Assembly (NCBI RefSeq): GCF_022448905.1
Contig: NZ_JAKVCW010000009.1
Coordinates: 1 to 64,000, forward strand
Direction of reading: 5' to 3'
Length of the DNA stretch: 64,000 nt
Source: Shimia sp.
GTDB lineage: Bacteria > Pseudomonadota > Alphaproteobacteria > Rhodobacterales > Rhodobacteraceae
The first letter of the stretch is position 1; each line of letters opens with the position of its first letter. Below the pieces are notes generated by a model. It did no database searches. It saw only the letters and a program-made list of their open reading frames with translations, and had not been told where the DNA came from. Both the position numbers and the translations under genes were made by a program. Below, in pieces: positions 26,361-30,243 of this stretch.

Positions 26361-28436
26361 TTAGCCGGAGATCAGGCCGAGGCTTTCCAGCTTCAGGATC
26401 ACCTGATGGGCACAGTTGTCCACATCGGCACCTTCGGTCTCCACACGCAGCTCTGGGTTCTCTGGCACGTCATATGGGTCAGAAATACCGGTGAACTCTT
26501 TGATCTTACCTTCGCGCGCCAGCTTATAGAGGCCTTTGCGGTCACGGCGTTCACATTCCTCAATCGAGGTCGCCACGTGCACTTCTACAAAGGCACCAAA
26601 GCCTTCGATGTCTTCACGTACGGCACGACGTGTGGTGGCATATGGCGCGATTGGCGCACAGATCGCGATACCACCGTTTTTGGTGATCTCAGACGCCACA
26701 TAGCCGATCCGACGGATGTTCAGGTCACGGTGCTCTTTGGAGAAGCCCAGCTCGGAGCTGAGGTTTTTCCGCACAATGTCGCCATCCAGCAGCGTCACCG
26801 GACGACCACCCATTTCCATCAGCTTGACCATCAGAGCGTTTGCAATGGTGGATTTGCCGGAGCCGGAGAAGCCGGTGAAGAACACGGTGAAGCCCTGTTT
26901 CGCACGTGGTGGCTTGGTCTTGCGTAGCTCTTTCACAACTTCCGGGAAGGAGAACCACTCAGGGATTTCCAGACCTTCGGCCAGGCGACGACGCAGCTCG
27001 GTGCCGGAGATGTTCAGGATGGTGACATCGTCTTTGTCCTGAATTTCGTCCATTGGCTCGTACTGCGCACGCTCCTGCACCCACACCATGTGTTTGAAGT
27101 CGACCATAGTGATGCCGATTTCTTCTTCATGTGCACGGAACAGTTCCTGCGCGTCATAGGGCCCGTAGAAGTCTTCGCCTGCGGAGTTCTTACCGGGGCC
27201 AGCGTGATCGCGGCCAACGATGAAGTGGGTGCAGCCGTGGTTGGCGCGGATCAGACCGTGCCAAACCGCCTCACGTGGGCCAGCCATACGCATCGCCAGG
27301 TTCAGCAGGGACATGGAGGTGGTGGAGGCAGGATACTTGTCCAGAACCGCCTCATAGCAGCGCACGCGGGTGAAGTGATCCACATCGCCCGGCTTGGTCA
27401 TGCCCACAACAGGGTGGATCAACAGGTTGGCCTGCGCTTCTTTGGCGGCACGGAAAGTCAGTTCCTGGTGCGCACGGTGCAGCGGGTTGCGGGTTTGGAA
27501 CGCAACCACTTTGCGCCAGCCCATTTTGCGGAAGTAGGCGCGCAGCTCGTTTGGCGTGTCGCGACGGGCGCGGAAGTCATAGTGCACAGGCTGTTGAATG
27601 CCGGTCACCGGACCACCGAGGTACACTTTACCCGCGTGGTTGTGCAGGTAGTTCACCGCTGGGTGCGCGTCATCATCCGCCCCAAACACTTTTTCCGCTT
27701 CCAACGCTTTGTTGGGCACAAAATTGTCGGTCACGGTCATGGTGGCGAGGATCACGCCTTCCTGATCGCGCAGCGCAATGTCCTGGCCTTCTTCCAGACC
27801 CGCGGCAAATTCCTCGGACACATCCAGGTTGATCGGCATTGGCCACAGGGAGCCATCCGCCAGGCGCATGTTCTCAACAACACCGTTGTAGTCTTCTTCG
27901 CTCAGGAAGCCTTTGAGCGGGTTGAAGCCACCGTTCATCAGCAGTTCCAAGTCACAGATCTGACGCGGTGTCAGATCCCAGCTGACCAGATCGGCCGCTT
28001 CCACTTTCAGCTTCTGAGCACTCTCATAAGAAACATAGAGCTCAGGAATAGGAGCCAGATTGTTTTGCATTGGATGTGTCCTGTGTTTGATAGGAACCAG
28101 GCCGCTTGCCGAGCCTGTCAGTTCCGCATGGAGCGCCTCATATTCAGAGAGCTTGCGGGCGAGGAATTGATCTGTGAGCCGCACTTTCTCCGCCGCACCA
28201 CGCGCGGTGAGCGAATAGGCAAACCTCTGTCGTTTGTCCGGGCCCGCGCGATCACTAATGGTAATCAGCCCGGCTTCTGCCGCAGCGCGCAGTTGTGCAT
28301 TCAGACGCCCCAAAGAAATCCCCACCGCCGCCGCAGTGGCGCGCTGTGATGCTTCTGGCGCCTGATCAAGCTGGCGCAGAAGGCGGAAGAGCACGTCTTC
28401 CTCATCTGATGTGGGTTTGGCGGTCTGAAATGACAT
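26361..28436 (-). CDS. MarR-like winged helix fused to ATP sulfurylase and APS kinase
   Basis: One uninterrupted 691-codon frame with three parts. Residues about 10-105 are a MarR/EPS-type winged helix (EEDVLFRLLRQL, ATAAAVGISLGRLNAQL, RFAYSLTARGAAEKVRLT). Residues about 123-510 are ATP sulfurylase, with QTRNPLHRAHQEL as the QxRN and HxxH motifs. Residues about 515-691 are APS kinase, with Walker A FTGFSGSGKST and LLDGDIVRKN. The enzyme parts make PAPS from sulfate and ATP. An internal ATG at 28070 (MQNNLAPIPEL) with AGGA 8 nt upstream is where a stand-alone enzyme of 569 residues would start. Both a fused and a separate product are therefore possible. A 20-bp palindrome lies upstream. Confidence 0.85.
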   Translation of the reverse strand: MSFQTAKPTSDEEDVLFRLLRQLDQAPEASQRATAAAVGISLGRLNAQLRAAAEAGLITISDRAGPDKRQRFAYSLTARGAAEKVRLTDQFLARKLSEYEALHAELTGSASGLVPIKHRTHPMQNNLAPIPELYVSYESAQKLKVEAADLVSWDLTPRQICDLELLMNGGFNPLKGFLSEEDYNGVVENMRLADGSLWPMPINLDVSEEFAAGLEEGQDIALRDQEGVILATMTVTDNFVPNKALEAEKVFGADDDAHPAVNYLHNHAGKVYLGGPVTGIQQPVHYDFRARRDTPNELRAYFRKMGWRKVVAFQTRNPLHRAHQELTFRAAKEAQANLLIHPVVGMTKPGDVDHFTRVRCYEAVLDKYPASTTSMSLLNLAMRMAGPREAVWHGLIRANHGCTHFIVGRDHAGPGKNSAGEDFYGPYDAQELFRAHEEEIGITMVDFKHMVWVQERAQYEPMDEIQDKDDVTILNISGTELRRRLAEGLEIPEWFSFPEVVKELRKTKPPRAKQGFTVFFTGFSGSGKSTIANALMVKLMEMGGRPVTLLDGDIVRKNLSSELGFSKEHRDLNIRRIGYVASEITKNGGIAICAPIAPYATTRRAVREDIEGFGAFVEVHVATSIEECERRDRKGLYKLAREGKIKEFTGISDPYDVPENPELRVETEGADVDNCAHQVILKLESLGLISG

Positions 28437-28453
28437 TAACAAACGACTCAAAG

Positions 28454-28473
28454 TGTGTTCACGCGTGAACACA
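28454..28473. promoter_or_regulatory. 20-bp perfect palindrome, probable operator
   Basis: TGTGTTCACGCGTGAACACA reads the same on both strands. It lies 17 bp upstream of the winged-helix / PAPS synthase start, inside the 124-bp gap after the cyclase gene. Position and symmetry fit an operator for a dimeric regulator, possibly the winged-helix protein itself. Confidence 0.65.
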
Positions 28474-28560
28474 TAGGGCGGTTTGGCAAAATCTCAAAGC
28501 CTTATTTGGCTTTTGCATAGCAAATATGCTACCGTTGCAATGCTGCAACGCAGCGCGACC

Positions 28561-30243
28561 TCACACCGTTTCGGCCTGCTTGGACAGCACCGCAGGCAAG
28601 GCCGCCGCCCGCTTCAGCGCCAAAGCCCGGACTGGCTGCGCCACGCCGCGCAACTCCAACACCTCAAGTGTATGTACCTCCGGATCATGCCCCGCCGCGG
28701 CCAACACAGCTTCGGACACCAGCACCTCCACGCCCAGCGCCTTGGTTTGCCCCTCCAAGCGGCTGGCAGCATTCACGGTGTCGCCAATGATAGTGCGCGG
28801 CGCGAGATTCACCGCGCCAATTTCGCCAAGCACCAACTCCCCCAAATGCACCCCCATACCGATCGCAACTGGCGTCGCATTTTCCGCTTTCAGGGTCTGA
28901 TTAAACACCTGCAAGGCCGAACTGATCCCCGCCGCCGCCTCAATTGCCGCCTTTGCCGAAGCCTCTTCACTGTCGAGCTCAAACACCGCCAGCAGCCCAT
29001 CACCCAGATACTTATCCACCGTACCCCCGACACCAGTGATCGACGGCACAATCGCATCAAAGAAACGGTTCAACAGAAACACGACATCGTAAGGCAACTG
29101 TCCCGTGGTGCGCGCCGTAAAACTCCGCATATCCAGAAACAGGATCGCCAACCGCCGCTCTTGCCCGAGGCTCTGATGTGCCCGCGCCTGCTGCCCATCA
29201 CTGCGAAACACCCGCAGCACGGTTGCCGGCTCCTTGGGCCGTAACTGACAGGCCAACCGCGCATTAGGCGGTGCATTCACCGCCGCCAAACTGTCCGCCT
29301 CCGCCTTCTCCGGCGGGTGCAACAACTCTGCGCCTTCCTCGACAATCACCCGACAGGTGGTGCAACGCCCACGACCACCACACAGCGCCATATGCGGCAC
29401 CCCGGCCACGCGCGACATCTCCAGCAAAGTCATACCCGGCTGCCCGGAAATCTCCGGCCCATCAACATAGCGAATACGCACCGCACGGCGCGCCCCGATA
29501 AAGCGCCGCCCAAAATGCACCGCCATGGTCAGCACCAAGAGCCCGACAAAAACACCCAGCAAGCTGCGGTTGATCTCGGCCAGTCGCGCAAAGGTCTCCA
29601 CCGTCGGAAAGCCGTAACTCTCCCGCAAGGCCGCACCGCCTTCCGGATCAAACAGCCGCATATTCTGCAACCGCCCCTGCACCAGAAACCCGGCCAGCGC
29701 AAAGGCTGGTACCAAGGTCGCGAGCGACAACATCACCGGCAACACCCGCCGCCAACTGGGCAGCACCCGCAGCCACATATGCAGACCAATACAGGCGTGA
29801 ATCCACACCACCAGCAGCAGAGCCGCCTGCTGCCAGCCGCTGGGCGAATTCCAGATCAGACCGGCAATGAAGCCCATCTCTGGCTCCACCTCAAACCGGT
29901 TCTCGGCCACCCGCGTGTGTACAATATGGGTCATCAACAACAGCGGGATCAGCAACCCCAACAGCACCTGCCCCGCCTCCGACGCGGGCATGCGCAGCGT
30001 GCGTTTCCGCGCCAAGCGGTACAAAGCCAACCCCATATGGGTCAACAACGCCCCATAGAGCGCGAGCTGCCCCAACGGATTGCTGGTCACAGCTTCCAAC
30101 CCATCCTGTGCCCACTCCATCGCCTCAAGAGAAAACAGCCCCATGCCAATATTGAAGAAGTGAAACAGCACATAACAAAAAAGGATCAACCCCGACACGA
30201 TGCGCGCCTTTGTGCGCCAATTGCCCTGCCACAATCTGTTCAC
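28561..30243 (-). CDS. Membrane adenylate cyclase with 2Fe-2S ferredoxin domain
   Basis: A 560-residue protein starting with GTG behind AAAGGA. Residues about 1-240 hold several membrane helices resembling a succinate-dehydrogenase-type haem-binding anchor (His in FHFFNIGMG, TH in LLTHMGLALY and LLMTHIVHTR). Residues about 250-345 are a plant-type 2Fe-2S domain with Cys in ALCGGRGRCTTCRV and a fourth in LACQLRP. Residues about 360-535 are a class III cyclase: FLDMRSFTA and LGDGLLAVF carry the metal Asp residues, DKYLGDG the purine-contact Lys, IIGDTVNAASR the Asp, Asn and Arg of the active site. It is predicted to make cAMP at the membrane in response to redox state; the redox control is inference. 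Confidence 0.9.
   Translation of the reverse strand: MNRLWQGNWRTKARIVSGLILFCYVLFHFFNIGMGLFSLEAMEWAQDGLEAVTSNPLGQLALYGALLTHMGLALYRLARKRTLRMPASEAGQVLLGLLIPLLLMTHIVHTRVAENRFEVEPEMGFIAGLIWNSPSGWQQAALLLVVWIHACIGLHMWLRVLPSWRRVLPVMLSLATLVPAFALAGFLVQGRLQNMRLFDPEGGAALRESYGFPTVETFARLAEINRSLLGVFVGLLVLTMAVHFGRRFIGARRAVRIRYVDGPEISGQPGMTLLEMSRVAGVPHMALCGGRGRCTTCRVIVEEGAELLHPPEKAEADSLAAVNAPPNARLACQLRPKEPATVLRVFRSDGQQARAHQSLGQERRLAILFLDMRSFTARTTGQLPYDVVFLLNRFFDAIVPSITGVGGTVDKYLGDGLLAVFELDSEEASAKAAIEAAAGISSALQVFNQTLKAENATPVAIGMGVHLGELVLGEIGAVNLAPRTIIGDTVNAASRLEGQTKALGVEVLVSEAVLAAAGHDPEVHTLEVLELRGVAQPVRALALKRAAALPAVLSKQAETV

Follow-up and report, generated by a model that had tools for sequence, protein, structure and literature searches.

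A winged-helix PAPS synthase of marine roseobacters with two conserved starts in one frame and a putative operator of its own

Introduction

Does a single reading frame in Shimia sp. encode both a sulfate-activating enzyme and a regulator of its own gene? The question arises from a locus in the window, by which we mean the whole 64,000-nucleotide stretch of contig NZ_JAKVCW010000009.1 that was analyzed, where the original prediction had read a winged helix as running straight into ATP sulfurylase and APS kinase with no stop between them. The enzyme part was thought to possess a start codon of its own, so that the cell would make either a DNA-binding PAPS synthase or two products from one frame; a nearby palindrome was nominated as the gene's own operator, and a link to exopolysaccharide (EPS) sulfation was proposed. 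We have followed these proposals through a comparison of fused and unfused relatives, of stand-alone winged-helix genes, and of other sites in Shimia genomes.

Results

The frame opens with ATG 28436 on the reverse strand and encodes 691 aa without interruption (Table 1), as had been supposed; an alternative GTG at 28472, which would give 703 aa, falls within the palindrome. Searched separately against protein families, as had been proposed, the N-terminal and enzyme parts matched TIGR04176 (MarR_EPS) and NF004040 (bifunctional SAT/APS kinase), respectively. Membership of the latter family is clear, with a match to residues 121 to 690 of 1040 bits against a cut-off of 669, agreement from Pfam, and intact HxxH, GRDHAG, and P-loop columns, which we take to be the catalytic motifs: RNPLHRAH and GRDHAGPG in ATP sulfurylase and G-SGSGKST in the P-loop of APS kinase are invariant in 86/86 fused proteins. 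The TIGR04176 match (residues 12 to 106) lies close to the curated cut-off of 88, at 89.7 bits with residues 1 to 122 alone and 85.2 bits in the whole protein, and the fused relatives score approximately 76 to 99; we regard the winged helix as a borderline member of the MarR_EPS family. A model of residues 1 to 122 by themselves shows a winged-helix fold that ends in a long helix (mean pLDDT of 83.6) and whose best structural matches are mostly of the MarR family (top E value of 1.4e-4; TM of ~0.5), with archaeal Sso10a among them; the long C-terminal helix in the model, residues 78 to 107, perhaps has a role in dimerization. In the full-length model, which was used for the winged helix and linker only, residues 116 to 138 fell below a pLDDT of 50 and the sulfurylase domain was poorly predicted (pTM of 0.58), probably owing to a narrow alignment.

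Table 1. Features of the fused gene and its upstream region (window coordinates)
Feature	Position	Strand	Basis
Long frame: winged helix, linker, ATP sulfurylase, APS kinase; 691 aa	26361..28436	-	Single frame kept in 113 loci
APS kinase domain (residues 514-665)	26442..26897	-	Pfam; motif columns
ATP sulfurylase (PUA_2 and ATP-sulfurylase domains, residues 130-506)	26919..28049	-	Pfam; motif columns
Predicted internal start codon of short PAPS synthase (569 aa)	28068..28070	-	NTG in 113/113 loci
Linker, residues 108-122	28071..28115	-	Translated (pN/pS 0.25)
Predicted internal Shine-Dalgarno AGGA on rare Arg AGG codon	28079..28082	-	AGG conservation
Winged-helix domain, MarR_EPS type, residues 10-107	28116..28409	-	TIGR04176 match, structure model, structural matches
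GAG, weak Shine-Dalgarno of long start	28447..28449	-	Duplex energy -2.2 kcal/mol
Putative operator, 20-nt palindrome TGTGTTCACGCGTGAACACA, core GTTCA-N4-TGAAC (28457-28470)	28454..28473		Conservation
-10-like CTATGT, abutting operator core	28471..28476	-	Sequence inference
-35-like CTTTGA	28494..28499	-	Sequence inference

A family-wide search found the enzyme in 326/394 genomes, and 150 of those 326 matches were compared. The fused set comprises 113 loci, 25 from Shimia (window included) and 88 from other genera; the unfused set comprises 63 loci, 60 of the family and 3 from other families. No stop between winged helix and enzyme was found in any of the 113 fused loci. The winged helix lies in an open frame of 692 to 734 aa in 24/24 other Shimia genomes searched; named Shimia loci are 95 to 98% identical to the window gene over this domain. 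The joined frame recurs in 80/80 named loci, Phaeobacter and Leisingera strains among them, which are the best 80 of 319 matches, chosen for likeness and overlapping with the set of 113. A sequencing error hiding a stop, or a chance open frame, is ruled out by the 113 relatives. The further concern raised with the original prediction, that relatives would always have the two genes separated by a stop, was not borne out: none of the 63 unfused loci has a winged-helix gene of MarR_EPS type in its fetched DNA, which covers 2.9 kb or more of upstream sequence in 61 cases. The fusion, on this comparison, is real, widespread, and shared by many marine bacteria. At the threshold used, the enzyme is rare outside the family (7/289 class genomes, four of them within the family). 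In one distant class member (L291, genome G647) the frame that encodes it extends to 1101 aa and may represent another kind of N-terminal fusion.

The junction itself is conserved. Within the genus, pN/pS is 0.17 for the winged helix, 0.08 for the enzyme, and 0.25 for the linker, and we conclude from the last value that the linker is translated and under purifying selection; the chosen long start and the internal start are separated by 122 codons in 79/113 loci. The best enzyme tree has 37 changes between fused and unfused labels, at least 5 of them forced by strong branches, but is poorly resolved; the matching junction may point to a single fusion origin with many losses or replacements.

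The proposed start of the enzyme part, ATG 28070 with AGGA 8 nt away, is borne out by the comparison. The corresponding codon is ATG in 108 of the fused loci, GTG in 4, and TTG in 1 (72 ATG and 8 GTG in the best 80 of 319 named loci, which overlap with the 113), and an ordinary methionine is unlikely at this position because all five departures from ATG are themselves start codons. The arginine codon at -12 to -10 is AGG in 109/110 loci with arginine there, a codon used for only 46/5733 arginines elsewhere in the same frames, and since the adjoining codons differ at third positions across the fused loci, AGG is kept as RNA sequence and not for arginine alone. AGG stands at Shine-Dalgarno spacing before 111/113 internal starts, compared with 51/1744 other in-frame ATGs; the exceptions are L131 (CGGA) and L142, in which AGGA spans two other codons and precedes an ATG two codons earlier. 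Internal starts pair with the anti-Shine-Dalgarno sequence at a mean energy of -4.5 kcal/mol, compared with -2.15 kcal/mol for long starts (from 105 loci) and -1.86 kcal/mol for other enzyme ATGs; in the window, the internal and long starts give -4.0 and -2.2 kcal/mol, respectively. M123 aligns with the N terminus of unfused enzymes, 37/63 of which have ATG at exactly this column and others no more than a few codons away. By the measure of sequence conservation, selection keeps two starts, that of the fusion and the internal one, in one frame. Of the original alternatives, a DNA-binding PAPS synthase or two products, what stands is two conserved starts in one frame, from which both products are predicted.

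The long start is less distinct. A nearest-start rule applied to the 113 loci gave 97 ATG, 8 GTG, 1 TTG, and 7 loci without a usable codon, and anti-Shine-Dalgarno pairing there is no better than that of ordinary ATGs; the conserved sequence TTTGAGTC follows the operator at the weak Shine-Dalgarno of this start. Given so poorly marked a start, little of the long form may be made. The putative promoter elements, identified from consensus matches only, are separated by 17 nt; across 111 loci, a CTTTNC consensus lies at -29 to -24 from the operator, and a -10-like consensus lies around -8 to -1.

The nomination of the sequence immediately upstream as an operator fared well. In the window it is a perfect palindrome, and GTTCA-N4-TGAAC is perfect upstream of 111/113 fused genes, one of the two others lying at a contig end and the other having a single mismatch; it was present in the 80/80 named fused loci that form the best 80 of 319 matches. 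The motif was not found within 500 nt upstream of any of the 63 unfused genes or in 833 coding windows of 230 nt. Stand-alone MarR_EPS genes have GTTCA-N4/5-TGAAC within approximately 250 nt upstream in 22/34 cases, compared with 0/263 null windows from the same loci; the exact palindrome is missing at the other 12. These sites (L296 to L312 and L236 to L252, all Pseudomonadota) lie approximately 20 to 150 nt upstream of the winged-helix match, and the spacer is N5 in all 14 exact stand-alone sites outside the class-level set L236 to L252. The operator goes with the winged helix because it accompanies nearly all fused genes, no unfused gene, and most stand-alone MarR_EPS genes. The fused loci share ancestry and raw P values overstate their independence, and we therefore counted pairs on the enzyme tree: well-supported branches give 5 independent fused/unfused pairs, in which the operator follows the fusion in 4.9/5 on average, with a median P value of 0.06. 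We regard it as very probable that this palindrome serves the winged helix as its operator, the evidence for its recognition by that domain being good but not final. Within the upstream stretch searched, two palindromes lie in 7 of the 111 fused loci (L070, L109, L127, L136, L139, L140, and L142).

The recognition helix varies with the half-site. Among the stand-alone genes, an exact GTTCA palindrome accompanies leucine, isoleucine, or methionine before the helix glycine in 22/25 cases and valine, threonine, or phenylalanine in 0/9; the latter nine loci, which fall into few lineages, have GCTCA in one or both halves in six cases (a full palindrome at L308, imperfect in the others), GATCA palindromes in two, and nothing clear in one. 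The fused proteins have SLG at this position in 112/113 cases and go with GTTCA; the exception, L040, has valine yet keeps GTTCA. These pairs of helix residue and half-site likely constitute an operator code for the MarR_EPS family. Four winged-helix relatives (L249 to L252) are encoded in frames of 201 to 241 aa with an extra C-terminal part; the gene following those of L251 and L252 looks, by its motif, to be of the RfaH/NusG type.

The window genome contains 8 perfect sites of the operator type, that of the fused gene included; 5 of the other 7 lie in gene-like frames, 1 overlaps the first codons of a small gene, and 1 (L064, 1501 to 1514) is placed 22 nt ahead of a gene whose product resembles a DMT-family transporter. 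Twenty-four Shimia genomes, this one included, have 2 to 8 perfect sites each (mean, 4.9) against 0 to 5 (mean, 1.7) for a reversed-pattern control, an excess that in part reflects the recurrence of the same coding sites, and the only target seen throughout the genus is the fused gene itself. A regulon of many genes is not supported by this distribution, although the excess over the control may reflect some other targets; the fused gene appears to be the main target of the winged helix and perhaps the only one.

The neighborhood bears on the pathway served. The fused gene is the one ATP sulfurylase/APS kinase found in the window genome, and a PF01507 search of that genome yielded two matches (L149 and L150), which by their sequence motifs we read as CysH-type reductases, one of the E. 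coli type and one cysteine rich and APS reductase-like, both beside sulfite reductase-like genes; none read as CysD. No polysaccharide Pfam family was found in the nine neighboring proteins (eight with a Pfam match and one without). The neighborhood contains trxB and an Lrp gene, which many relatives share. An upstream trxB is present in 72/113 fused loci, where the sequence extends as far as 2.5 kb in only 50, and in 53/63 unfused loci, so that the two forms alternate in the same neighborhood. Among the plasmid records listed, ten of rhodobacteral origin have the enzyme in alignments that begin at residues 104 to 129, without the winged helix; the two copies inspected are unfused and lie near polysaccharide genes. 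The link to EPS sulfation is thus not upheld: the fused gene is most likely a sulfate-assimilation enzyme, because it is the sole sulfate-activating enzyme found in the genome, it shares the trxB neighborhood, and the two inspected plasmid copies near polysaccharide genes are unfused.

Further features of these loci were recorded. The window encodes at 28561 to 30243 on the reverse strand a protein of 560 aa that combines a ferredoxin (Fer2) domain with a class III adenylate cyclase domain, and a gene of this type lies near 27/113 fused and 16/63 unfused PAPS synthase loci. A gel protein of Roseobacter litoralis, given as 64.39 kDa in PMC4103551, has the size of an unfused form; we discarded it as evidence for two products because this species has unfused copies on plasmids.

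Discussion

We suggest that this gene encodes an autorepressing enzyme, a reading that we consider probable, in which one gene limits its own expression and so forms a feedback circuit for sulfate activation, with a repressor-enzyme and a shorter enzyme both translated from one mRNA. That mRNA would come from a single promoter; its weakly marked first start would yield the winged-helix PAPS synthase and the better-marked, conserved in-frame start would yield PAPS synthase alone. The winged helix would bind GTTCA-N4-TGAAC next to the -10-like element, covering the transcription start, and the long form at the operator would lower transcription of both products; contact between the -10-like element and the palindrome is what one would expect of a site at which a repressor occludes the transcription start. 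Long and short chains would probably coassemble through the enzyme part. From the sequences we infer the synthesis of both proteins, DNA binding, repression, and mixed oligomers. That occupancy of the enzyme part by ATP, APS, or PAPS may tune DNA binding is a speculative idea, made plausible by the examples of PutA and BirA. A complete loop within one frame, in which the enzyme domains would serve as the ATP/APS/PAPS sensor, the long form would coassemble with the short form, and the cassette, gained or lost together with its operator, would act as the switch for sulfate activation in a large part of the marine roseobacters, is a more tentative proposition that we regard as rather less likely than not.

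The same data can be read in other ways. Only the long protein might be made, with AGG and NTG kept for some other reason, such as a slow codon that helps the domains to fold apart; AGG is indeed rare in these genes and sits at a domain boundary, in a linker modeled with low confidence, but the codon that varies at the junction is always a start codon, its distance from AGG suits a ribosome-binding site, L142 keeps AGGA without an arginine codon there, and M123 coincides with the N terminus of the unfused enzymes, so that we find this account quite improbable. Somewhat less so, although still unlikely, is the view that only the short enzyme matters and that the fusion arose by chance when the stop between a repressor gene and an enzyme gene disappeared, the long protein being a repressor with a passive enzyme tail. 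The better marking of the internal start and the initiation of unfused relatives at or near the equivalent methionine accord with such a view; a link of this kind should break often, yet the linker is free of stops in all of the fused loci, the 122-codon junction prevails, and the unfused loci have no stand-alone winged-helix gene.

The placement of the winged helix in the MarR_EPS family and the proximity of two plasmid enzyme copies to polysaccharide genes invite a third account, in which polysaccharide sulfation draws its PAPS from the fused enzyme and the winged helix controls EPS genes. Those plasmid copies are, however, unfused, the fused gene lies by trxB and the Lrp gene as the only sulfate-activating enzyme found in the genome, and 0/7 of the other operator-type sites precede a gene recognized as EPS related; we consider this account very improbable. 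The autorepressing enzyme remains the reading that we prefer. If it is correct, it provides a named switch for the entry of sulfate into metabolism in a large group of marine bacteria, and PAPS synthase is to be counted among the self-regulating enzymes, unusual in that its DNA-binding part is optional at translation. A likely operator of MarR_EPS regulators, GTTCA-N4/5-TGAAC, also emerges from the comparison. In one open-access library, no paper on a winged-helix PAPS synthase was found by title or abstract, nor was one on a MarR_EPS operator under that family name.

Several known systems share parts of this design. MarR_EPS regulators have a related winged helix and a GTTCA palindrome close upstream of the gene, a feature of the family that emerged from this analysis and that the fused gene displays; these regulators are typically stand-alone proteins of ~105 aa in EPS loci, whereas here the domain scores near the family cut-off, is fused to a metabolic enzyme with no polysaccharide family nearby, and is accompanied by an N4 spacer. 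The enzyme part, with its catalytic motifs, is that of bifunctional SAT/APS kinases (NF004040), but the chains of structures 1i2d, 1m8p, 2gks, and 3cr8, presumably of fungal, Aquifex, and Thiobacillus origin, align to this part only and lack the winged helix. In BirA, the biotin ligase and repressor, a winged helix likewise precedes an adenylating enzyme, and some ligases lack the helix. Like BirA and PutA (proline utilization A), the long form combines, by sequence and model, a DNA-binding domain and an active enzyme in one chain; these two are described in PMC6978683 as "trigger enzymes" that repress genes of their own pathway. Unlike them, it would join PAPS synthase to a MarR_EPS domain, and its conserved internal start would provide a form without the DNA-binding part. 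Two in-frame starts that give a long and a short product are reported for phage endolysins (PMC9430671) and for Arabidopsis ATP sulfurylase (PMC4283515). The roseobacter gene, with a conserved internal Shine-Dalgarno and start codon, is predicted to behave similarly, with the difference that the part unique to its long product is a DNA-binding domain with a putative operator of its own.
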